Source: Jannaschia aquimarina
GTDB lineage: Bacteria > Pseudomonadota > Alphaproteobacteria > Rhodobacterales > Rhodobacteraceae
Direction: 5' to 3'
DNA length: 64,000 nt
NCBI RefSeq assembly: GCF_000877395.1
Contig: NZ_JYFE01000016.1
Coordinates: forward strand, 1 to 64,000
Under the pieces are notes generated by a model. It was not told where the DNA came from. It was given only the letters and a program-made list of their open reading frames with translations, and ran no database searches. This document shows, piece by piece, positions 1 through 22,436 of the stretch (positions are counted from its first letter, which is position 1; each line of letters begins with the position of its first letter). The position numbers were made by a program, and so were the translations under genes.

Positions 1-871
1 GGGCCTGCGCGGGCTGCGGCGCGGGGGCGGGGGCCTTGCCGGCCTTCAGCGCGTCCTCCTTCATGATCCGGCCGTCGCGGCCGGTGCCGGTCACCTGGCT
101 CGGGTCGAGACCTTTCTCGGCCATGATCTTCTTGGCCGACGGCGCGTCCTCGGTGTCCCGCCCGCCTCCGGCGGCGGCCACGTTGGCCTTGGCCTGCTCG
201 ACCTCCTCGGGGCCGGCATCGGGGTTCGGGCGCGGATCGACCGCATGGGGCGCATGTACATCCGCCCCGGCACCGGCCATCAGCACGGCCAGCTTGCCGC
301 CGGCCTGCACAGTTCCGCCCTCATCGACGACGATCTCGGACAGGGTGCCCGCCGCGGGGGCCGGCACCTCGACCGAGACCTTGTCGGTCTCCAGCTCGCA
401 CAGCATCTCGTCCTGCTCGACGCTGTCGCCGACCGACTTGAACCAGGTGGCGACGGTGGCTTCCGAGACGCTCTCGCCCAAGGCCGGGACCATCACGTCG
501 ACCGCCTGGCCTTCGCCCCCGTCTCCGCTTGCGTCGGAGGCGTCCGTCGTGCCGCCCGCGTCCGAGGTCCCTTCTTCGGAACCCGGCTGCGCCACGGCGG
601 CGGGAGCGGCGGAGTAGGACGCATCGGCGCCGGCCCCTTCGGAGATCGTGGCCAGCAGCGCGTCGACGCCCACCGTCTCACCCTCCGGGGCGACGATCTC
701 GCCCAGGGTGCCGGTCGCCGGGGAGGGCACCTCGACCGTCACCTTGTCGGTCTCCAACTCGCACAGCATCTCGTCGGTCGCGACCTCGTCGCCGGGTTGC
801 TTGAACCAGGTCGCGACGGTGGCCTCGGTCACGGACTCGCCCAGGGTGGGCACCTTAACTTCGATGGTCAT
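1..871 (-). CDS. odhB: 2-oxoglutarate dehydrogenase E2 (dihydrolipoyl succinyltransferase), partial
   Basis: E2 core of the 2-oxoglutarate dehydrogenase complex, which moves the succinyl group from E1 via lipoyl-lysine to CoA. Only the N-terminal 290 residues are in the window; the gene runs off the left edge and the catalytic domain is not seen. Two lipoyl domains are visible: residues 1-77 with lipoyl Lys43 in ETDKVTVEV, and about 121-198 with Lys162 in ETDKVSVEV. An Ala/Ser/Asp-rich linker joins them. A peripheral subunit-binding domain follows at about 241-275 ([20 protein letters not shown]). The ATG lies 3 bp after the odhA stop, so the two genes are surely co-transcribed. E. coli SucB has one lipoyl domain, so the duplication is notable. 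Pyruvate dehydrogenase E2 is unlikely given the odhA neighbour. Confidence 0.96.
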
Positions 872-874
872 TCC

Positions 875-3844
875 TTACTCCATGCCCAGCGCGTCGTTCA
901 CGAGCGCCTGCTGCTGTGCCTTGTGTTGAGAGGCGAGGCCCGTTGCGGGCGAAGCCGATGCGGCGCGGCCCGCATAGACGGGCCGGGTGTGGCTGGCGCC
1001 GATGCGCGTCAGCACCCATTCGATGTTCGGTTCGACGAAGGTCCAGCCGCCCTGGTTCTTGGGCTCTTCCTGACACCAGACGATCTCGGCCTGCTTGAAG
1101 CGTTCGAGCTCCTTGACCATGGCCAGCGCCGGGAACGGATAGAACTGCTCCAGCCGCAGGATGTAGGTGTCGTCCTTTCCCGCCTCGTCGCGCGCTTCCA
1201 GCAGGTCGTAGTAGACCTTGCCCGAACAGATCACGACGCGCTTTATCTTGTCGTCCGGCTTCAACTTCAGCTCGGAATTGCCCTGCTGCGCGTCGTCCCA
1301 GAGCACACGGTGGAAGGTCGATCCTTCGAGGAACTCTTCCATGCGGCTGACGGCCATCTTGTGCCGCAACAGCGATTTCGGCGTCATCAGGATCAGCGGC
1401 TTGCGGAAGGTCCGGTGCAACTGACGGCGCAGGATGTGGAAGTAGTTCGCGGGCGTGGTGCAATTCGCGACGATCCAGTTGTCCTGGCCGCACATCTGCA
1501 GGAACCGCTCGAGCCGGGCCGAAGAATGCTCTGGCCCCTGGCCCTCGTAGCCATGGGGCAGCAGGCAGACGAGGCCCGACATGCGCAGCCACTTCGACTC
1601 GCCCGAAGAGATGAACTGATCGAACATGATCTGCGCGCCGTTGGCGAAATCGCCGAACTGGGCCTCCCACATCGTCAGCGCATTGGGCTCGGCCAACGAG
1701 TAGCCATATTCGAAGCCCAGCACCGCATATTCCGACAGGGCACTGTCGATCACTTCGTAATGCGCCTGGCCCTCGCGCACATGATTGAGGGGGTAATACC
1801 GCTCCTCTGTCTCCTGGTTCACCAGACCGGAATGGCGTTGCGAGAAGGTGCCGCGCGTCGAATCCTGACCCGCCAGCCTGACGCGGTAGCCTTCGGTCAG
1901 GAGCGATCCGAAGGCCAGCGCCTCGGCCGTGGCCCAGTCGAACCCCTCGCCGGTCTCGAACATCTTGGCCCGGCCGTCGATCAGCCGCCCGACCGTCTTG
2001 TGCAACGGGAATCCGTCGGGGATCTTCGTAAGGGCGTCACCGACCGCATTCAGCGTCGCCTCGGCGATGCCGGTATCCCCGCGGACATATTCCGCGTCAC
2101 CGCGACGGTCGATATGCTTCCACCGGCCGTCCAGCCAGTCGGCCTTGTTGGGCTTGTAGTCCTTCCCGGCCTCGAATTCCTCGTTCAGATGCGATTGGAA
2201 CGAGGCCTTCATGTCCTCGATCTCGCCCTCGGGGATCAGGCCGTCCTTGACCAGCCGGTCCGTGTAGAGCGACAGGGTCGTCTTGTGACCCTTGATCCGC
2301 TTGTACATGATCGGGTTGGTGAACATGGGCTCGTCGCCCTCGTTATGCCCGAAGCGGCGGTAGCAGAAGATGTCGATGACGACGTCCTTGCCGAACTTCT
2401 GACGGAACTCGGTGGCGACCTTCGCGGCATGGACCACGGCCTCGGGGTCGTCGCCGTTGACGTGGAAGATGGGCGCCTCGACCACCAGCGCGTTGTCCGT
2501 GGGATAGGGGCTGGATCGCGAGAAGTGCGGCGCGGTCGTGAAGCCGATCTGGTTGTTGACCACAAGGTGGATCGTGCCGCCGGTCCTGTGACCGCGCACG
2601 CCCGAGAGCGCAAAACACTCCGCCACCACGCCCTGACCCGCAAAGGCCGCGTCGCCATGCAGCAGGACGCCGGTCACCTTGGTCCGTTCGGTGTCGTCCA
2701 ACTGATCCTGCTTGGCACGGACCTTGCCCAGCACGACCGGGTTCACCGCCTCGAGGTGCGAGGGGTTCGCGGTCAGCGACAGGTGGACGACGTTGCCATC
2801 GAATTCGCGGTCGCTGGACGCGCCGAGGTGGTATTTCACGTCGCCCGAGCCGTCCACGTCCTCAGGCTTGAAGCTGCCGCCCTGGAACTCGTTGAAGATC
2901 GCCTTGTAGGGCTTGCCCATCACGTTGGCCAAGACGCTCAGACGGCCCCGGTGCGGCATGCCGATCACGATGTCGCTGAGGCCCAGCTGGCCGCCGCGCT
3001 TGATGATCTGCTCCATCGCGGGGATCAGGGCCTCGCCGCCATCCAGCCCGAACCGCTTGGTGCCCATGTACTTGACGTGCAGGAACTTCTCGAAGCCCTC
3101 GGCCTCGACCAGCTTGTTCAGGATGGCCCGGCGGCCGTTCTTGGTGAACTCGATCTCCTTACCCAGACCCTCGATCCGCTCCTTCAGCCAGGCAGATTGC
3201 TCCGGATCCGAGATGTGCATGTATTGCAGCGCGAAGGTGCCGCAGTAGGTGCGCTTGAGGATCGAGACGATCTCGCGCAGCGTCGCGACTTCGAGGCCCA
3301 GCACCTGATCGATGAAGATCGGACGGTCCATGTCGGCGTCGGTGAAGCCGTAGGATTTGGGCTCAAGCTCGGGATGCGGCTCCTGGCTGCGCATGCCCAA
3401 CGGATCGAGATCGGCGACCAGATGGCCCCGGATCCGGTAGGCACGGATCAGCATCAGCGCGCGGATCGAGTCGAGCACGGCACGGCGCACCTGCTCGTCG
3501 GTGACCGCCTCGCCGCGGGCCTCGGCCTTGGCCTTGATCTTGTCGCCTGCCGCCTTGGCCTCTTTGGGATCGGCGGGCGGAGCGGGCCATTCACCGGTCA
3601 GCGCGGCGGTCAGATCGTCGCCCGGCACCGGCGGCCAGTCGGTCCGCGCCCAGCTCGGGCCCTCGGCTTCGGCCCGGGCATCCTGCGGGCTGTCCTGCAG
3701 CGAGCGGAAGAACTGCGCCCAGCTTTCATCGACCGCCTTGGGGTCGTTGGCATAGCGCGCATACATCTGTTCCAGGTAGGCGGCATTGTGCCCCTGCATG
3801 AACGAGGTGTTATGGAAGACGTCGTTGGGGGACTGGTCGGTCAT
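875..3844 (-). CDS. odhA: 2-oxoglutarate dehydrogenase E1 component
   Basis: Thiamine-diphosphate-dependent E1 that decarboxylates 2-oxoglutarate and succinylates the lipoyl group of OdhB in the TCA cycle. At 989 residues it has normal family length. The N-terminus has the E1o signature (NTSFMQGHNAAYLEQMYARY). The central TPP domain carries GMPHRGRLSVLANV near residue 300, LLHGDAAFAGQGVV and VVNNQIGFTT. The C-terminal part has the transketolase-like pyrimidine domain (FSQRHSGLVNQETEERY) and GYEGQGPEHSSARLERFLQ. The ATG overlaps the stop of the upstream small exported-protein gene by 4 bp (ATGA), and odhB follows 3 bp after the stop. Translation is therefore probably coupled along the operon. 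Confidence 0.98.
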   Translation of the reverse strand: MTDQSPNDVFHNTSFMQGHNAAYLEQMYARYANDPKAVDESWAQFFRSLQDSPQDARAEAEGPSWARTDWPPVPGDDLTAALTGEWPAPPADPKEAKAAGDKIKAKAEARGEAVTDEQVRRAVLDSIRALMLIRAYRIRGHLVADLDPLGMRSQEPHPELEPKSYGFTDADMDRPIFIDQVLGLEVATLREIVSILKRTYCGTFALQYMHISDPEQSAWLKERIEGLGKEIEFTKNGRRAILNKLVEAEGFEKFLHVKYMGTKRFGLDGGEALIPAMEQIIKRGGQLGLSDIVIGMPHRGRLSVLANVMGKPYKAIFNEFQGGSFKPEDVDGSGDVKYHLGASSDREFDGNVVHLSLTANPSHLEAVNPVVLGKVRAKQDQLDDTERTKVTGVLLHGDAAFAGQGVVAECFALSGVRGHRTGGTIHLVVNNQIGFTTAPHFSRSSPYPTDNALVVEAPIFHVNGDDPEAVVHAAKVATEFRQKFGKDVVIDIFCYRRFGHNEGDEPMFTNPIMYKRIKGHKTTLSLYTDRLVKDGLIPEGEIEDMKASFQSHLNEEFEAGKDYKPNKADWLDGRWKHIDRRGDAEYVRGDTGIAEATLNAVGDALTKIPDGFPLHKTVGRLIDGRAKMFETGEGFDWATAEALAFGSLLTEGYRVRLAGQDSTRGTFSQRHSGLVNQETEERYYPLNHVREGQAHYEVIDSALSEYAVLGFEYGYSLAEPNALTMWEAQFGDFANGAQIMFDQFISSGESKWLRMSGLVCLLPHGYEGQGPEHSSARLERFLQMCGQDNWIVANCTTPANYFHILRRQLHRTFRKPLILMTPKSLLRHKMAVSRMEEFLEGSTFHRVLWDDAQQGNSELKLKPDDKIKRVVICSGKVYYDLLEARDEAGKDDTYILRLEQFYPFPALAMVKELERFKQAEIVWCQEEPKNQGGWTFVEPNIEWVLTRIGASHTRPVYAGRAASASPATGLASQHKAQQQALVNDALGME

Positions 3845-4467
3845 TCTGAGGTCTCCTCGGGGAGAATGAACTCTTTGCTGTAAAGCCCGCGGGCAGGGGC
3901 GTCCGGGTGGTTCGCAGTATTCAGGGGGCCCGAGCTAACAACGTCGCGCGCATCTGGCCCGAGCGCGAGCCGGCAGCTGCGGCGCGCGCGCCCGTCCCCC
4001 GCATCCGATTGCGTCATCGTCATCACGTCGTCGCCCCGGACGTAGACGCGGAAGCGCGCCGTTCCGGTCTCGACCCGTCTGAACAGACCGGGCACGGCCC
4101 GGCGCTGTATTTCGAAGAGCGCGGCGACGTCCTGCCCGCCCCGATCGGCCCGCGTCCCGAGGCTGTCGAGATAGGGGGGCATGAGCGTCCAGGCCGCACC
4201 GCGCGCCTGCGCCGGGCTCAGATCTCCGGCTGCATGGACGCGCGCGAACCCGCGCTCGCGCAAGAAGTCTTCCGCCGCCTCGAAGGCGGACGCGTTGCAG
4301 GCCATCAGGCTGTCGGTGAAGGCCGAGGCGGGGCCACCCGCGAGCGCGACCCACAGGCCCATGCCGCCCGCGAGCGTGACCCCCAGGCCCATCGGGCCCG
4401 GGCCGCGTCTGGCGGTCGGCCGGCGCCTGCCTGCGCTGCGCGCTATCTGACGGCCCCGTCCGGTCAT
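3841..4467 (-). CDS. hypothetical exported protein between sucD and odhA
   Basis: No family is recognised. The 208-residue product has an arginine-rich first 25 residues, then a hydrophobic stretch ending in [10 protein letters not shown], which looks like a signal peptide with cleavage after ASA. The mature part has two cysteines and no known motif. The frame overlaps the sucD stop by 4 bp at its start and the odhA start by 4 bp at its end, so it is translationally coupled to both. The true start may be an inner Met (residue 26, position 4392), which would give a conventional signal peptide; the first ATG is kept because of the ATGA overlap. Periplasmic location is inferred. Whether it does anything for the TCA enzymes is unknown. 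Confidence 0.72.
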
Positions 4468-5351
4468 CCTTTGTCGATCGCCTCCTTCACGGCCTCGCCC
4501 AGTGTCGCTGGGCTGTCGGCCACGACGATGCCCGCGCTGCGCATGGCTTCGATCTTGCTTTCGGCGTCGCCCTTGCCGCCCGCGACGATGGCGCCGGCAT
4601 GGCCCATGCGGCGGCCCGGCGGGGCGGTGCGGCCGGCGATGAAGCCGGCGGTGGGCTTCCAGCGGCCCTTCTTCTTCTCGGAGGCGAGGAACTCGGCGGC
4701 CTCCTCCTCGGCGGTGCCGCCGATCTCGCCGATCATGATGATCGAGGTCGTCTCGTCGTCGGCCAGGAACATCTCGAGCACGTCGATATGCTCGGTCCCC
4801 TTGATCGGGTCGCCGCCGATGCCCACGGCGGTCGACTGGCCCAGCCCCATATCTGTCGTCTGTTTCACGGCCTCGTAGGTAAGCGTGCCCGACCGGGACA
4901 CAACGCCCACCGAGCCGCGCTTATGGATATGGCCGGGCATGATACCGATCTTGCAGGCATCCGGCGTGATCACGCCGGGGCAGTTCGGCCCGATCAGACG
5001 CGTCTTGGAGCCGTCCAGCGCGCGCTTGACCTTCATCATGTCGAGCACCGGAATGCCCTCTGTGATGCAGACGACCAGCGGGATCTCGGCGTCGATCGCC
5101 TCCAGGATCGAGTCGGCGGCGAAGGGCGGCGGAACATAGATGACCGAGGCATCGGCTCCGGTCTTTTCGACCGCCTCGAAGCAGCTGTCGAAGACGGGCA
5201 GGTCCAGATGCGTCTGGCCGCCCTTCCCGGGGGTGACGCCCCCCACCATCTGCGTGCCGTAGGCGATGGCCTGCTCGCTGTGAAACGTCCCCTGGGAGCC
5301 GGTGAACCCCTGGCAGATCACCTTCGTGTCCTTGTCGATCAGGATGGCCAT
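4464..5351 (-). CDS. sucD: succinyl-CoA synthetase alpha subunit
   Basis: Alpha subunit of succinate-CoA ligase (ADP-forming), the substrate-level phosphorylation step of the TCA cycle. It binds CoA and carries the phosphohistidine. The 295 residues match the family. Visible motifs are the CoA-binding Rossmann segment ([19 protein letters not shown]), the GPNCPG loop at about 121-126 and the active-site His251 in [11 protein letters not shown]. The beta subunit gene sucC lies 2.3 kb upstream in the same direction. Four small exported proteins sit between the two subunit genes, which is unlike the adjacent sucCD of enterobacteria. The stop overlaps the next gene by 4 bp. Confidence 0.98.
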
Positions 5352-7230: not shown

Positions 7231-7575
7231 TCAGAGGGTCTCCTTCGCAAAGCCCACGGCGAGGTCGAAGACCCCCGGAAAGTTGATGCCGAGGCCGAAG
7301 AACCTGGTTCCGCAAAAGACCGCTCGCATACTCCGGCGATGGGACCCGTAGGTATGATACCCAGCCCGTATGCCGGGCTGGATGAAGCCAAGCTTGGCGC
7401 TGACCCAGTACATCGCCTGCGCGCCGTAGCTGATGGCTATGAGCACAACGCCGGTGCCGACCAGCTCGGTCGCCGTATCCGACGACGGCTCCCCACCACC
7501 TTGCGTCGCCGCGGCGGCCGTCGGCAGCATTGCTGCTGCAACGGTCAAGGTCGAGGCGGTGCTGCGAGGTGACAT
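7231..7575 (-). CDS. hypothetical membrane protein
   Basis: Open frame of 114 residues that I do not recognise. It begins with an Ala/Thr-rich stretch resembling a signal peptide (VAAAMLPTAAAA), followed by a hydrophobic segment at about 38-62 that could cross the membrane. The C-terminal half is basic and aromatic. It sits in the sucC-sucD gap with 116 bp to the sucC stop and 206 bp to the next lipoprotein start, so its spacing is looser than in the rest of the operon. Codon use is less typical than in its neighbours and it may not be a real gene. Confidence 0.45.
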   Translation of the reverse strand: MSPRSTASTLTVAAAMLPTAAAATQGGGEPSSDTATELVGTGVVLIAISYGAQAMYWVSAKLGFIQPGIRAGYHTYGSHRRSMRAVFCGTRFFGLGINFPGVFDLAVGFAKETL

Positions 7576-7691
7576 GGGGGCGATCCTAAGGTTCGTTCAG
7601 GCGTCTGGAACAGATGAGGCAATCCAGGGCTCAGCCCGTTCGGCGCTCGAAAGGTCCACTGGACCATTCGCCGGCTGTGCCAGAGCGCGCC

Positions 7692-8885
7692 TCACCCCTT
7701 CACCGCCTTCACGATCTTCTGCGCGCCGTCCTTCAGGTCGTCGGCGGCGATGACGTTCAGGCCGGACGTGTTGATGATCTCCTTGCCCTTCTCGACATTC
7801 GTCCCCTCCAGGCGCACCACCAGCGGGACCTGAAGGCCGACTTCCTTGACCGCCGCGACCACGCCCTCGGCGATGACGTCGCAGCGCATGATGCCGCCGA
7901 AGATGTTGACGAGGATGCCCTTCACGTTGTCGTCCGACGTGATGATCTTGAAGGCTTCCGTCACCTTCTCCTTGGTCGCGCCGCCGCCCACGTCGAGGAA
8001 GTTGGCAGGCTCCGCCCCGTAGAGCTTGATGATGTCCATCGTGGCCATGGCGAGGCCGGCGCCGTTGACCATGCAACCGATCTCGCCATCGAGCGCGATG
8101 TAGTTCAGGTCGTATTTGGACGCGGCGAGCTCCTTGGGGTCTTCCTCGGTCTCGTCGCGCAGTTCGGCGATGTCCTTGTGGCGGTAGATGGCGTTACCGT
8201 CGAAGCCGACCTTGGCATCCAGCACCTTGAGGTCGCCCGCATCGGTCACGATCAGCGGGTTGATCTCGAGCATCTCCATGTCCTTCTCGGTGAAGGCCTG
8301 GTAGAGCTTGCCCATCAGCGAGACGCATTGCTTGATTTGCGCGCCTTCCAGCCCCAGCGCGAACGCGATGCGGCGCCCGTGATAGGGCATGTAGCCCGTC
8401 GCGGGGTCGACATCGAAGCTGACGATCTTCTCGGGGGTCGACGCGGCGACTTCCTCGATATCCATGCCGCCTTCGGTCGAGCAGACGAAGCCGATGCGGC
8501 TGCTGGCGCGGTCGACGAGCAGGGCGAGGTACAGTTCACGCGCGATGCCGCTGCCGTCCTCGATGTAGATGCGGTTGACCTGCTTGCCCGCCGGGCCGGT
8601 CTGATGCGTCACCAGCGTGTTGCCCAGCATCGCCTTGGCATGGGCCTCGGCCTCCTCGACGGACTTGGCCAGCCGGACGCCGCCCTTGTCGCCGGCCTCC
8701 GGCTCCTTGAAGTGGCCCTTTCCGCGGCCGCCGGCATGGATCTGTGCCTTGACCACCCAGAGCGGACCGTCGAGCTGACCCGCCGCGGTCTTCGCCTCGG
8801 ACGCCTTCGTGACGGCGACGCCGTCGCTGACGGGCGCACCGTAATCGCGCAGGAGGGCCTTGGCCTGATACTCGTGGATGTTCAT
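7692..8885 (-). CDS. sucC: succinyl-CoA synthetase beta subunit
   Basis: Beta subunit of succinate-CoA ligase with an ATP-grasp fold; it binds the nucleotide and succinate and pairs with SucD. The 397 residues are close to the usual 388-400. The start [16 protein letters not shown] is the family N-terminus and was chosen over a 64-residue upstream extension. Visible motifs include [16 protein letters not shown] for nucleotide binding, [21 protein letters not shown] and [13 protein letters not shown] near the C-terminus. It is the first gene of the minus-strand sucC-odhB run. Its promoter region (8886-9111) holds two TGTGATCACA palindromes and an 8-bp inverted repeat, and diverges from the FkbM gene. 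Confidence 0.97.
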
Positions 8886-8924: not shown

Positions 8925-8955
8925 GCTTTGCACCCGCAACCCTTGCTTGCAAAGC
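8925..8955. promoter_or_regulatory. inverted repeat in the sucC leader
   Basis: GCTTTGCA (8925-8932) and TGCAAAGC (8948-8955) form a perfect 8-bp inverted repeat with 15 bp between the arms. It lies 40-70 bp upstream of the sucC ATG, between that gene and the TGTGATCACA pair. The right arm lies in CTTGCAAAG, itself nearly palindromic and reminiscent of the TTTGCAAA half-sites bound by RamB/PccR-type regulators. It could equally be an mRNA hairpin. The role is inferred; only the symmetry is observed. Confidence 0.4.
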
Positions 8956-8999
8956 GAGACGAAAGCATTTGTCGTGATCCGGCGGAAAAACACGCGCTC

Positions 9000-9030
9000 T
9001 GTGATCACACCGCCCGCTGGTGTGATCACA
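9000..9030. promoter_or_regulatory. paired TGTGATCACA operators upstream of sucC
   Basis: Two perfect 10-bp palindromes TGTGATCACA lie at 9000-9009 and 9021-9030, with centres 21 bp apart (two helical turns). They are in the divergent region between sucC and the FkbM gene, 115-145 bp from the sucC ATG. The same pair with the same spacing occurs upstream of sdhC. The palindrome shape suits a GntR/FadR-type dimer. In Rhodobacter sphaeroides the GntR protein AkgR activates TCA genes, so it is the natural candidate, but I cannot confirm its site from memory. Confidence 0.72.
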
Positions 9031-9111
9031 AGGCCGTAGATGTCCGGTGTTGCGACGCGAATCCGGACCTGCCACATCTGTGCCCATGCCGATCAGGGAG
9101 GCCATGCGGGA

Positions 9112-9879
9112 ATGAACGAGTACGAAGAGATGGTCCGCCGGCTGATCCAGTCCGCCCCGCGGCCGATGCGGCGTCGACTTCAGGCAAACCTGCCGACGGT
9201 TCGCGCCCGCTACGCCGATCTGGACCTTCTCATCGCGCCGGCACGGAACCACACGGAGTTCTTTCTCTGGCAGAAGGGACGCCCGCCGGAGCACAAGGCA
9301 ACCCAACATCTGTGCGACCTGTTTCGCGACAAGCGGATCACGATGGTGGATGTCGGCGCGAATGCCGGGATCTTCTCGCTGCCTCTGGCGCGGGTCGCGG
9401 CGCCCGGCTCGCGGTTCGTTCTGGTCGAGCCGAATCCCGAAGTCCTGGCGCGGTTACGGGCGAACATCGCGCTGAACGGACTGACGGATGTCGAAGTGGT
9501 CGAAGTGGCCATCAGCGACGAACCGGGGCGCATGACCCTGCATTTTTCGCCGAACGACAATCAGGGAGAGGCACGTCTCGGCATCGCGTTCGACACCGAT
9601 GCGGGCGGGATCGATGTAGAGGTGACGACGCTGCCCGACCTCCTGACCACGCTCGGGATCGAGGAGGTCGATCTGCTGAAGGTCGATGTCGAAGGGGTCG
9701 AGGATCGCGTCATCCTGCCCGCGATCCGCAAGATGCCGAAGGGCGCGATCCGCCGGATCTACTTCGAGGACAGCCACGGCGAGCATTGGAGCGAGAGCGT
9801 CACCGATGCGCTGACGAATGCCGGCTTCAAGGAAGGCGGCCGGTTCCGGGCCAACGCGCTCTATGTCGCCGGGGACTGA
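9112..9879 (+). CDS. FkbM family methyltransferase
   Basis: S-adenosylmethionine-dependent O-methyltransferase of the FkbM type (255 residues), a family that usually methylates sugars or polyketide-like products. The SAM-binding motif I is MVDVGANAGIFSLPLA. The acidic strand-2 residue is in FVLVEPNPEVLARLRANI, and the family's late motif LLKVDVEGVEDRVI is present. The ATG at 9112 has a strong SD (AGGGAGG) a few bases upstream; an upstream in-frame extension was discarded. It is divergent from sucC and overlaps the 3' end of the convergent glycosyltransferase gene by 19 bp. With that neighbour it suggests surface glycan or glycoconjugate modification; the substrate is not known. Confidence 0.88.
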   Translation: MNEYEEMVRRLIQSAPRPMRRRLQANLPTVRARYADLDLLIAPARNHTEFFLWQKGRPPEHKATQHLCDLFRDKRITMVDVGANAGIFSLPLARVAAPGSRFVLVEPNPEVLARLRANIALNGLTDVEVVEVAISDEPGRMTLHFSPNDNQGEARLGIAFDTDAGGIDVEVTTLPDLLTTLGIEEVDLLKVDVEGVEDRVILPAIRKMPKGAIRRIYFEDSHGEHWSESVTDALTNAGFKEGGRFRANALYVAGD

Positions 9880-17138: not shown

Positions 17139-17483
17139 TCAGTTCGCCATGCCGTTCTCGCCGAACGGATCGTGCCCCCAGTTCTTCATCGAGTATTCCC
17201 AATCGGTATCCTTCGGGTCGTCGGGTACCTGCGCGCCGTGACGTTTGATGTAGCCGATGACATCAGCCATATGGTCCCAGTCGTCGTCGCTCAGATCGTC
17301 CTTGTTCGTCCGCTTGATCTCGATGATGCGCTTGGCGGACTTCCGGCCCTTCGACTCGCCATCGCCGCTATCGGCGCCGACATCCTTTGACTTGTCGGTG
17401 TCCAGCCAGTCCTCGATCTCGGAGGGCGCCATGTTCACCAGATCGCCCCATTCGTCCCAGATCTGATCTCTCGACTTGCTCAT
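17139..17483 (-). CDS. DUF3140 domain-containing protein
   Basis: A soluble acidic/charged protein of 114 residues matching DUF3140: DQIWDEWGDLVNMAPSEIEDWL at the N-terminus and DDWDHMADVIGYIKRHGAQ in the second half. The ATG at 17483 has GGAGGACGAA immediately upstream. An ATG 12 bp further up (17495) and a longer frame were not used. The gene is divergent from sdhC and shares the 202-bp region with the TGTGATCACA pair. The family has no established function; plasmid or chromosome copies often lie near stress genes. Confidence 0.82.
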   Translation of the reverse strand: MSKSRDQIWDEWGDLVNMAPSEIEDWLDTDKSKDVGADSGDGESKGRKSAKRIIEIKRTNKDDLSDDDWDHMADVIGYIKRHGAQVPDDPKDTDWEYSMKNWGHDPFGENGMAN

Positions 17484-17542: not shown

Positions 17543-17573
17543 TGTGATCACACATTTCGAGTGTGTGATCACG
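17543..17573. promoter_or_regulatory. paired TGTGATCACA/G operators upstream of sdhC
   Basis: TGTGATCACA at 17543-17552 and TGTGATCACG at 17564-17573 lie in the region between DUF3140 and sdhC. Centres are 21 bp apart, the same spacing as the pair before sucC. They lie about 115-140 bp upstream of the sdhC ATG and about 50-80 bp upstream of the proposed -35. This fits an activator site, or a repressor of the divergent DUF3140 gene. Confidence 0.72.
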
Positions 17574-17620
17574 GAGGGGCCAAAAGGACTGTCTTTCCGG
17601 CCGTGCGACGTGACGCCCCC

Positions 17621-17685: not shown

Positions 17686-18072
17686 ATGGCCGACGTGAAC
17701 CGGGGCGACCGCCCGCTATCCCCGCATCTCCAGATCTACCGCCCGCAATTGACGTCGATGACGTCGATCCTGACGCGGATCACGGGGAACGCGCTCATCG
17801 TGGCGTCGCTCATGATCACATGGTGGTTCGTGGCCGCGGCGGCCGGTCCGGACGCATTCGCCACGGCCGACGCTTTCCTGCGAAGCTGGTTCGGCGATTT
17901 GGTGATGCTCTTCTCGGTGCTGGGGCTCTGGTATCACACGCTTGCCGGGATCCGGCACCTGATCTGGGATACGGGCCGGATGCTCGAACTCGAAAAGGCA
18001 GAGGCGTCGGGCTGGGTGATCCTGATCGCGTCCGTCATGCTGACCCTCTTCACAATCGTCATCTTCTGGTGA
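17686..18072 (+). CDS. sdhC: succinate dehydrogenase cytochrome b556 subunit
   Basis: Membrane anchor subunit of complex II (128 residues, three transmembrane segments) that carries haem b and the quinone site with SdhD. Family signature RPLSPHLQIYRPQLTSMTSILTRITG is near the N-terminus. The haem-ligand histidine region is LWYHTLAGIRHLIWDTG. It is the first gene of sdhCD-A-B. GAAGAGAAGGGG upstream supports the ATG. sdhD follows 5 bp after its stop. Confidence 0.97.
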   Translation: MADVNRGDRPLSPHLQIYRPQLTSMTSILTRITGNALIVASLMITWWFVAAAAGPDAFATADAFLRSWFGDLVMLFSVLGLWYHTLAGIRHLIWDTGRMLELEKAEASGWVILIASVMLTLFTIVIFW

Positions 18073-18468: not shown

Positions 18469-20280
18469 ATGCCCGCTTACGAATACGAGACCCACGAATA
18501 CGACGTCGTCGTCGTCGGTGCCGGCGGTGCCGGGCTGCGCGCCACGCTCGGCATGGCCGAGCAGGGCCTGCGCACGGCCTGCGTGACCAAGGTGTTCCCG
18601 ACCCGCTCTCATACGGTGGCCGCGCAGGGGGGCATCGCCGCCTCGCTGGGCAATATGGGCCCCGATAGCTGGCAGTGGCACATGTACGACACCGTCAAGG
18701 GCTCGGACTGGCTGGGCGACACCGACGCGATGGAATACCTCGCCCGCGAGGCGCCCAAGGCCGTCTACGAGCTGGAGCATTACGGCGTCCCCTTCTCGCG
18801 CACCGAGGAAGGCAAGATCTATCAGCGCCCCTTCGGCGGCCACACGACAGAATATGGCGAAGGCCCCCCGGTTCAGCGCACCTGCGCCGCCGCCGACCGC
18901 ACCGGCCACGCGATCCTGCACACGCTCTATGGTCAATCGCTCAAGCAGCAGGCGCAGTTCTTCATCGAATACTTCGCCATCGACCTCATCATGTCCGAGG
19001 ACGGCGCGTGCCAGGGCGTCCTCTGCTGGAAGCTGGACGACGGTACGCTGCACCTCTTCAGCGCCAAGATGACCGTGCTTGCCACCGGCGGCTATGGGCG
19101 CGCCTACTTCAGCGCCACGTCCGCCCATACCTGCACCGGCGACGGCAACGGCATGGTGGCCCGCGCGGGCCTGCCGCTGCAGGACATGGAATTCGTGCAG
19201 TTCCACCCGACGGGCATCTACGGCGCCGGCTGCCTCATCACCGAAGGCGCACGGGGTGAGGGCGGCTACCTGACGAATTCCGAGGGCGAGCGGTTCATGG
19301 AGCGCTATGCGCCCACCTACAAGGACCTCGCCAGCCGAGACGTCGTCAGTCGCTGCATGACGCTGGAAATCCGCGAGGGCCGCGGCGTCGGCAAGGAAGG
19401 CGACCATATCCACCTCCACCTCAACCACCTGCCGCCCGATGTACTGGCCGAACGCCTGCCTGGCATTTCCGAATCCGCACGTATCTTCGCCGGTGTCGAC
19501 GTCACGAAAGAGCCGATCCCCGTCCTGCCGACCGTGCACTACAATATGGGGGGCATCCCGACGAATTACTGGGGCGAGGTGCTCGCGCCGACCAAAGACG
19601 ATTCCGACCGCGTGTCGCCCGGCCTGATGGCCGTGGGCGAGGCGGGCTGCGCATCCGTACACGGCGCGAACCGCCTCGGCTCGAACTCGTTGATCGACCT
19701 CGTGGTTTTCGGTCGCGCCGCCGCGATCCGCGCCGGTCAGGTCGTCGACCCGGACACCGCCGTTCCCAGCCCGAACATGCGCTCGGTCGAGATGGCGCTG
19801 GCGCGTTTCGACGGGCTGCGCCATGCGCGCGGCCAGGTCGCCACCGCCGAGTTGCGTCTCGAGATGCAGAAGACCATGCAGCGCGATGCCGCCGTCTTCC
19901 GCACCTCCGAGACGCTCGCGCAGGGCAAGGAGGCGATGGACGGCATCGCCGACAAGCTCGACGACCTCGCCGTGACCGACAACACGCTGATCTGGAACTC
20001 CGACCTGATGGAGACGCTGGAACTCGCGAACCTGATGCCCAACGCCGTCGCCACCGTGACGGCCGCCGAGGCCCGCAAGGAAAGCCGCGGCGCCCATGCG
20101 CATGAGGACTTCCCCGACCGCGACGACGAGAACTGGCGCAAGCACAGCCTCGTCTGGTTCAAGGGCGACGAGATGAAGTCAGACTTGGGCTATCGCGGCG
20201 TGCATCTGGACTCGCTCACCTCGCACAACGAGGGCGGCATCGACCCCAAGAAGATCGCGCCGAAGGCCCGGGTGTATTGA
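18469..20280 (+). CDS. sdhA: succinate dehydrogenase flavoprotein subunit
   Basis: Catalytic FAD subunit of complex II, 603 residues. It has the Rossmann motif [15 protein letters not shown], the covalent FAD attachment His48 in [12 protein letters not shown], the active-site segment [45 protein letters not shown] and the C-terminal [17 protein letters not shown]. Length and motifs are complete. Unusually, sdhB is not next: 1.4 kb with two lipoproteins and a sulfotransferase gene separates them. Confidence 0.99.
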
Positions 20281-21656: not shown

Positions 21657-22436
21657 ATGGTGCAATTCACCCTGCCCAAGAATTCGAAGATCACGACAGG
21701 CAAGACTTGGCCCAAGCCCGAAGGCGCGAACCGGCTCAAGACCTTCAAGATCTACCGCTGGAACCCGGAAGACGGGAAGAACCCTCGCGTCGACACCTAT
21801 TTCGTCGATCTCGACACCTGCGGTCCGATGGTCCTGGACGCGCTGATCAAGATCAAGAACGAGATCGACCCGACGCTGACCTTCCGCCGCTCCTGCCGCG
21901 AAGGGATCTGCGGGTCGTGTGCCATGAATATCGACGGCGCCAACACGCTGGCCTGCACCTACGGCATCGACGAGGTCGACGGCGACGTGAAGATCTACCC
22001 GCTGCCGCACATGCCGGTTGTCAAGGACCTGATCCCCGACCTGACGCATTTCTATGCCCAGCATGCCAGCGTCATGCCGTGGCTCGAGACCAAGACGAAC
22101 ACGCCGGCGAAGGAATGGAAGCAATCCATCGAGGACCGCAAGAAGCTCGACGGCCTCTACGAATGCATCATGTGCGCCTCCTGCTCGACGGCCTGCCCGT
22201 CCTACTGGTGGAACGGCGACCGCTATCTGGGGCCGGCGGCGCTGCTGCATGCCTATCGCTGGATCATCGACTCACGCGACGAGGCGACCGGAGAGCGGCT
22301 GGACCAGCTCGAGGATCCGTTCAAGCTGTATCGTTGCCACACGATCATGAACTGCACAAAGACCTGCCCCAAGGGCCTGAACCCGGCCAAGGCCATCGCG
22401 TCGATCAAGAAGATGATGGTCGAACGGCAGCTCTGA
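21657..22436 (+). CDS. sdhB: succinate dehydrogenase iron-sulfur subunit
   Basis: Electron-transfer subunit of complex II, 259 residues. The plant-type [2Fe-2S] ligands are Cys80, Cys85, Cys88 and Cys100 ([12 protein letters not shown]). The C-terminal ferredoxin domain holds [17 protein letters not shown], and [17 protein letters not shown] for the [4Fe-4S] and [3Fe-4S] centres. AGGAGGA lies 7 bp before the ATG, one of the best SDs in the window, perhaps restoring high translation after the inserted genes. Confidence 0.98.

Follow-up and report, generated by a model that had tools for sequence, protein, structure and literature searches.

AkgR of Rhodobacter (Cereibacter) sphaeroides, which was reportedly described by Imam et al. 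in mBio in 2015 and which we take to be the same protein as RSP_0981, is the closest described counterpart of the control system considered here. PMC6365646 (2019) terms AkgR a transcriptional activator and gives GTGATCAC among its binding sites, and a 2015 network paper (PMC4344238) predicts the GntR regulator RSP_0981 to act on sucCD, sdh, and odh. The window analysed here, a stretch of 64,000 nucleotides from Jannaschia aquimarina, resembles this system in the 8-bp motif GTGATCAC, in the predicted targets sucCD, odh, and sdh, and in the GntR superfamily membership of the regulator. The core occurs in all four boxes of the window, the putative targets are sucCD, sucAB, and sdh, and the genome encodes a GntR candidate; an auto-box at the regulator's own gene, a feature that we propose here and do not take from print, is absent from this genome. 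AkgR had been named as a candidate by the sequence-only reading, together with a comparison against its published sites. This proposal gained support, as both the published motif and the predicted targets are the same. Most likely, then, the two pairs belong to the AkgR regulon of a further member of the family.

Other described GntR-type regulators are more distant. PS417_07240, a GntR-like protein of a deoxyribonate cluster in Pseudomonas simiae, is 32% identical to AkgR and has GTGATCAC upstream of its cluster (PMC6365646), but its box lies at -47 to -40 from the start codon and its targets belong to sugar-acid catabolism, not to the TCA cycle. PdhR, GlcR, and LldR (FadR-type, central carbon) share the HTH-FCD architecture and the metabolic setting of our candidate regulator; PdhR-type proteins differ in that this genome's PdhR-like protein and its opened orthologues lack GTGATCAC at the gene. 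The best sequence match of the candidate among solved structures is McbR of Escherichia coli (4p9f, E 2e-24), a likeness of fold family only; the function and targets of McbR differ. We found no description of the pair layout, the phased tracts, the auto-box, or the fumC site in the literature searched, the AkgR paper lying outside that search.

Paired boxes upstream of sucC and sdhC

Two pairs of palindromic boxes lie 8.5 kb apart on the contig. The sucC pair comprises a gene-proximal box at 9000..9009 and a gene-distal box at 9021..9030, both TGTGATCACA and 21 bp apart from centre to centre. The sdhC pair comprises a gene-distal box at 17543..17552 (TGTGATCACA) and a gene-proximal box at 17564..17573 (TGTGATCACG), the last base of which is G, one off the decamer. 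The distance to the start codon is 115 bp for the sucC pair and 113 bp for the sdhC pair. The sequence-only reading had reported matched pairs with the same 21-bp spacing before both genes, and its coordinates are exact. It had called the boxes perfect palindromes, which holds for the decamer TGTGATCACA in three of the four and fails in the sdhC-proximal box, while the 8-bp palindromic core GTGATCAC is intact in all four. The opposite strands it had assigned are correct for the genes (sucC minus, sdhC plus) and do not apply to the boxes, which as palindromes are strandless.

The sucC gene (7692..8885, minus strand; NCBIfam PRK00696) is the first of a sucC-sucD-sucA-sucB run that continues on the same strand with sucD (4464..5351; PRK05678), sucA for the 2-oxoglutarate dehydrogenase E1 component (875..3844; PRK09404), and the first part of sucB (44..871; tblastn with a relative's SucB), inside which the contig ends. 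Transcription from sucC through sucB probably yields a single transcript. On the plus strand, sdhC (17686..18072; TIGR02970) is the first gene of the sdh operon, which includes sdhA (18469..20280; TIGR01816) and sdhB (21657..22436; PRK05950); all these NCBIfam matches of the suc and sdh genes are above cut-off. Each pair-bearing intergenic region is shared with a divergent gene, so co-control of these neighbours is possible: an FkbM-type methyltransferase gene (9040..9879, plus strand; Pfam PF05050), whose likely start is the in-frame ATG at 9112, and a DUF3140 gene (17139..17483, minus strand; PF11338). Consensus scans of the regions upstream of sucC and sdhC identified no sigma-70-type promoter, and a terminator scan of the same regions was likewise negative. 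Across the related sucC sites described below, a weak positional signal past the pair, with T-richness at 48-50 and an A at 84-85, is insufficient to name a promoter.

Short A/T tracts separate the boxes from the genes, within 8950-9000 for sucC and 17573-17620 for sdhC. On the gene strand of sucC (minus), TTTTT at 8986..8990 lies 11-15 bp past the core of the proximal box and AAAT at 8967..8970 lies 31-34 bp past it. On the plus strand before sdhC, AAAA at 17582..17585 and TTT at 17594..17596 lie 10-13 bp and 22-24 bp past the core of the proximal box, respectively.

The pairs are rare in the genome (G000; 4.10 Mb, 81 contigs). No further copy had been noted in the window, and there is none at up to one mismatch; none of 100 shuffled windows reached four matches. 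Genome-wide we counted ten exact decamers, compared with about 1.8 expected from the dinucleotides of the window. Three of them are the sucC and sdhC sites. Long reading frames contain the remaining seven, as placed by eye from translations (one, in proB, was inferred from its neighbours). When the genome was scanned for the 21-bp pair with up to three mismatches, only the sucC and sdhC sites were recovered, so the random scatter that would have spoken against a TCA link did not appear. The wider pattern TGATCA-N0..30-TGATCA occurs at 12 other places in the genome, and the one that was opened (L011) lies inside a transporter-like reading frame.

Conservation, spacing, and phasing of the pairs

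The pairs are deeply conserved across the bacterial family. Exact core pairs, mostly two to a genome, are present in 106 of 120 family genomes sampled at one per genus, a count of pair presence in which the downstream gene was checked for part of the genomes. In a class sample of 385 genomes, exact pairs occur in all five family members (two each) and in five of the 380 others. A looser pattern is found in 26 of 40 genomes (this one and 39 relatives), namely the genome itself, 17 of 19 others of the same genus, all four from other genera of the family, and four of 16 from other families; some of these matches are not exact core pairs, as in G023, which has none. The two congeners in which the looser pattern gave no pair are G012 and G017, and 11 of the 17 that matched have two sites on the same contig at a distance of 5-7 kb, much as in the present genome with its 8.5 kb.

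Scanning a collection of 84,980 species yielded at least 120 loci, with 126 pair sites among the matches listed. Of these listed sites, 92 lie 97-205 bp before sucC (53) or sdhC (39), which supports the earlier suggestion of a dedicated TCA regulator. Judged by eye from their titles, the 92 come from organisms with Rhodobacteraceae-type names or from metagenome-assembled genomes of Alphaproteobacteria or Proteobacteria, the exceptions being one Robiginitomaculum and one Maritalea. The remaining 34 listed sites have no sucC or sdhC assignment; five are from Rhodobacterales by title and 29 from other orders, classes, or phyla. Of the five, L101 has the sucC gene just beyond the end of the locus (L232), the loci L134 and L139 end near the pair site, and the pairs of L128 and L131 lie inside or across reading frames. 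Among the 34, 27 fall within open frames of 150 or more codons, an overlap that proves little because several TCA sites overlap such frames too.

Spacing is almost invariant. In a set of 148 distinct sites (88 sucC and 60 sdhC), the centres are 21 bp apart in 136 and 20 bp apart in 12. This set was chosen by exact core pairs, so looser variants would escape it, and spacings of 19-23 bp were allowed in the family sample and 20-22 bp in the species-collection scan. The outer flanks extend the boxes as TTTGTGATCACAAA, and the inner flanks do so to a lesser degree. In the sucC and sdhC sets alike, the sequence past the gene-proximal box turns A/T-rich repeatedly, at about +11, +22, +32, and +42. 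In mean A/T profiles in which related sequences are weighted equally, the 9-12 bp power downstream of the pair is 0.96 for sucC and 0.69 for sdhC, compared with 0.04 and 0.08 upstream of the pair; close to the start codon it is 0.05 and 0.02. No shuffled profile was as strong as the downstream ones (0 of 500 and 0 of 2000). Even the small control values were seldom matched, three of the four in 0 of 500 shuffles and the fourth in 30 of 500, so the effect size, and not the shuffle count, is the evidence here.

Several pairs are located at other genes. In G452 (C16, L369:3293-3323), and in this one genome, a third pair lies 124 bp before fumC, another TCA gene. In another alphaproteobacterial family (f15), TonB-receptor-like genes are preceded by pairs spaced 21-22 bp, and a GntR homologue is encoded nearby (G037 and G177; L237:992-1020 and L368:4808-4839), which suggests that the same operator type is used for uptake genes in that family. 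In G409 a 22-bp-spaced pair (L367:3821-3852) closely follows the 3' end of a chemotaxis-receptor gene, and this genome encodes a 40% identical homologue of the candidate regulator with a box upstream. The pairs in G037, G177, and G409 show that genes outside the TCA cycle can have this layout too.

Candidate regulator and alternative readings

The genome encodes 11 FCD-type GntR proteins, three of which were compared as candidates. The preferred one (C81:33197-33841; L236:5198-5842) has GntR and FCD domains and is encoded 1.6 kb from lpd, the identity of which was confirmed. Its orthologues are present in 103 of the 120 sampled genera and track the exact pair: 102 genomes have both, 13 neither, one the regulator only, and four the pair only (Fisher p 3.7e-13, uncorrected for relatedness). 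As such tests ignore phylogeny, the genomes without both may reflect few losses. In the class sample, orthologues with 73-100% identity are confined to the five family members, and the next best match is 43% identical. The one genome with the regulator and no exact pair is G450 (C18, L365), which has no box at up to one mismatch in the 19.5 kb around the regulator, a stretch lying outside suc. The pair is found without a regulator match in G429, G443, G504, and G522; for G522, a contig break inside sucC may explain the absence. Among relatives of the 11 FCD proteins searched for inside the listed pair loci (at least 120 named), only a weak Actinomadura match was found.

The core GTGATCAC also marks most of the opened regulator genes themselves. 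It lies within -120 to +60 of the start codon in 30 of 37 opened orthologues, usually 10-20 bp before the start; the 37 comprise 33 loci from the class and family searches (mostly best scorers and thus non-random) and four from individually opened genomes. The gene of J. aquimarina has no such auto-box (best match with three mismatches), and neither do six of the other 36. In the FCD domain, the C81 protein has an aspartate where the genome's ten other FCD proteins have a histidine, a position that we assume to be a metal ligand of FCD domains. This aspartate is invariant in all 37 orthologues and in all 24 distant homologues, a set made up of class-sample matches with E up to 1e-30 and two f15 loci. 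The core lies upstream of six of these 24, which include all four from family f105 and the f15 genome G177, where a pair precedes the GntR gene by about 150 bp.

Gene order links the regulator to the suc operon in some relatives. All six genomes opened for this purpose (Defluviimonas, Planktomarina, Amylibacter, Maritimibacter, G452, and G483) have the orthologue close to lpd and suc, and regulator and pair are at most 30 kb apart in 16 of 20 hand-picked genomes that have both on one contig. The distance is 0.1-2.7 Mb in the other four, G361, G184, G445, and G449, and further genomes have them on separate contigs. J. aquimarina likewise has its regulator and suc genes on different contigs. The contig of the window ends inside sucB, lpd and the regulator are interior to another contig, and no sucB was found in 11 kb around them (L236, lpd at 7482-8867); the usual sucB-lpd order therefore seems broken here.

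The third GntR protein compared (C15) was dropped, with GTGATCAC at the gene in none of eight cases, its own copy included; close relatives with 68-75% identity occur in all seven individually opened genomes.

The remaining candidate, a PdhR-like GntR protein (C48:65626-66390 in this genome), could bind the boxes; its gene lies on the sdh side of the TCA cluster in some relatives. It is about 4-6 kb from sdhB in Defluviimonas and G522, the gene number RSP_0981 also hints at the sdh side, and across the 120 genomes its presence is correlated, though more weakly, with that of the pair (87 both, 12 neither, two regulator only, 19 pair only; p 8.5e-7). Those 19 genomes keep the pair in its absence, however, compared with four for the C81 regulator. 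Moreover, GTGATCAC lies near the start of none of its orthologues in sets of six and 30, both of which contain the own copy, and on this ground the protein was dropped. PdhR itself binds TGGTnnnACC, and the best NCBIfam match of C48 is PdhR at 194.9 bits, below the family cut-off of 330. We consider binding by this protein quite improbable. A factor of the CRP/FNR type or some other reader of TGTGA/TCACA half-sites is less probable still: the half-sites do look CRP-like, but the CRP consensus is TGTGA-N6-TCACA, and here the half-sites adjoin with no 6-bp gap in a gapless, paired palindrome, while co-occurrence and the auto-box point to one GntR clade. The CceR consensus predicted in PMC4344238 is absent from the scanned regions upstream of sucC, sdhC, and mdh.

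Less easily set aside, though still unlikely, is that the same GntR regulator works with the opposite sign and that each pair is an operator repressing sdh and suc. Many FCD/GntR proteins are repressors, and an auto-box near the start codon looks repressive. Against this, AkgR is an activator in the wording of PMC6365646, and the boxes at the TCA genes keep a distance of at least 97 bp from the start codons, a stretch that contains the phased A/T tracts. That the pairs are a product of chance or a structural repeat has a negligible probability. Single copies of TGTGATCACA elsewhere in the genome do sit inside genes, yet 0.0012 exact core pairs are expected for one spacing in the whole genome, whereas pairs occur in 106 of 120 genera with a variable spacer sequence; conservation already refutes this reading.

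Proposed joint control of two TCA operons

The sites, their spacing and phasing, the co-occurrence, and the auto-box are computational observations, and we place the probability that the pairs at sucC and sdhC are tandem operators of an AkgR-type GntR/FCD factor at roughly 0.8. Each pair would accommodate two dimers. The C81 protein, probably the AkgR orthologue, is predicted to bind both pairs, with neighbouring dimers two turns apart and thus on the same helical face. Located some 115 bp ahead of the start codons, it would activate suc and sdh jointly, and the phased A/T tracts that lead from the boxes to the promoter may serve as contacts for RNA polymerase. The single box found at the regulator's start codon in most of the relatives examined suggests that it may also repress its own gene. 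Very probably, then, the pairs bind one dedicated regulator that has already been described in a relative.

A more far-reaching version, in which a phased operator array and an aspartate-bearing FCD reader together set TCA flux, is tentative, and we hold it to be somewhat less likely than its negation. Its elements, offered jointly, are dimer sites paired at two turns, after which come about four A/T tracts, one every 10 bp; tracts that would keep the face of the boxes turned towards the promoter; DNA that might be bent or wrapped, or might present a ladder of contacts for RNA polymerase alpha subunits; and a reader forming a distinct FCD subfamily, with aspartate for the last histidine of the sensor pocket, that could set TCA flux family-wide.

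The control switch is real but mostly known, as published work already has AkgR acting on the TCA cycle, and the present analysis adds details. The survey yields a candidate regulator, an operator with strict geometry, and a box by which the regulator may often control itself, and the fumC pair of G452 would widen the TCA regulon. With these, AkgR-type control can be tested directly in species other than R. sphaeroides. Throughout a large bacterial family, two operons of the Krebs cycle seem to be set jointly by a single regulator that has two sites.
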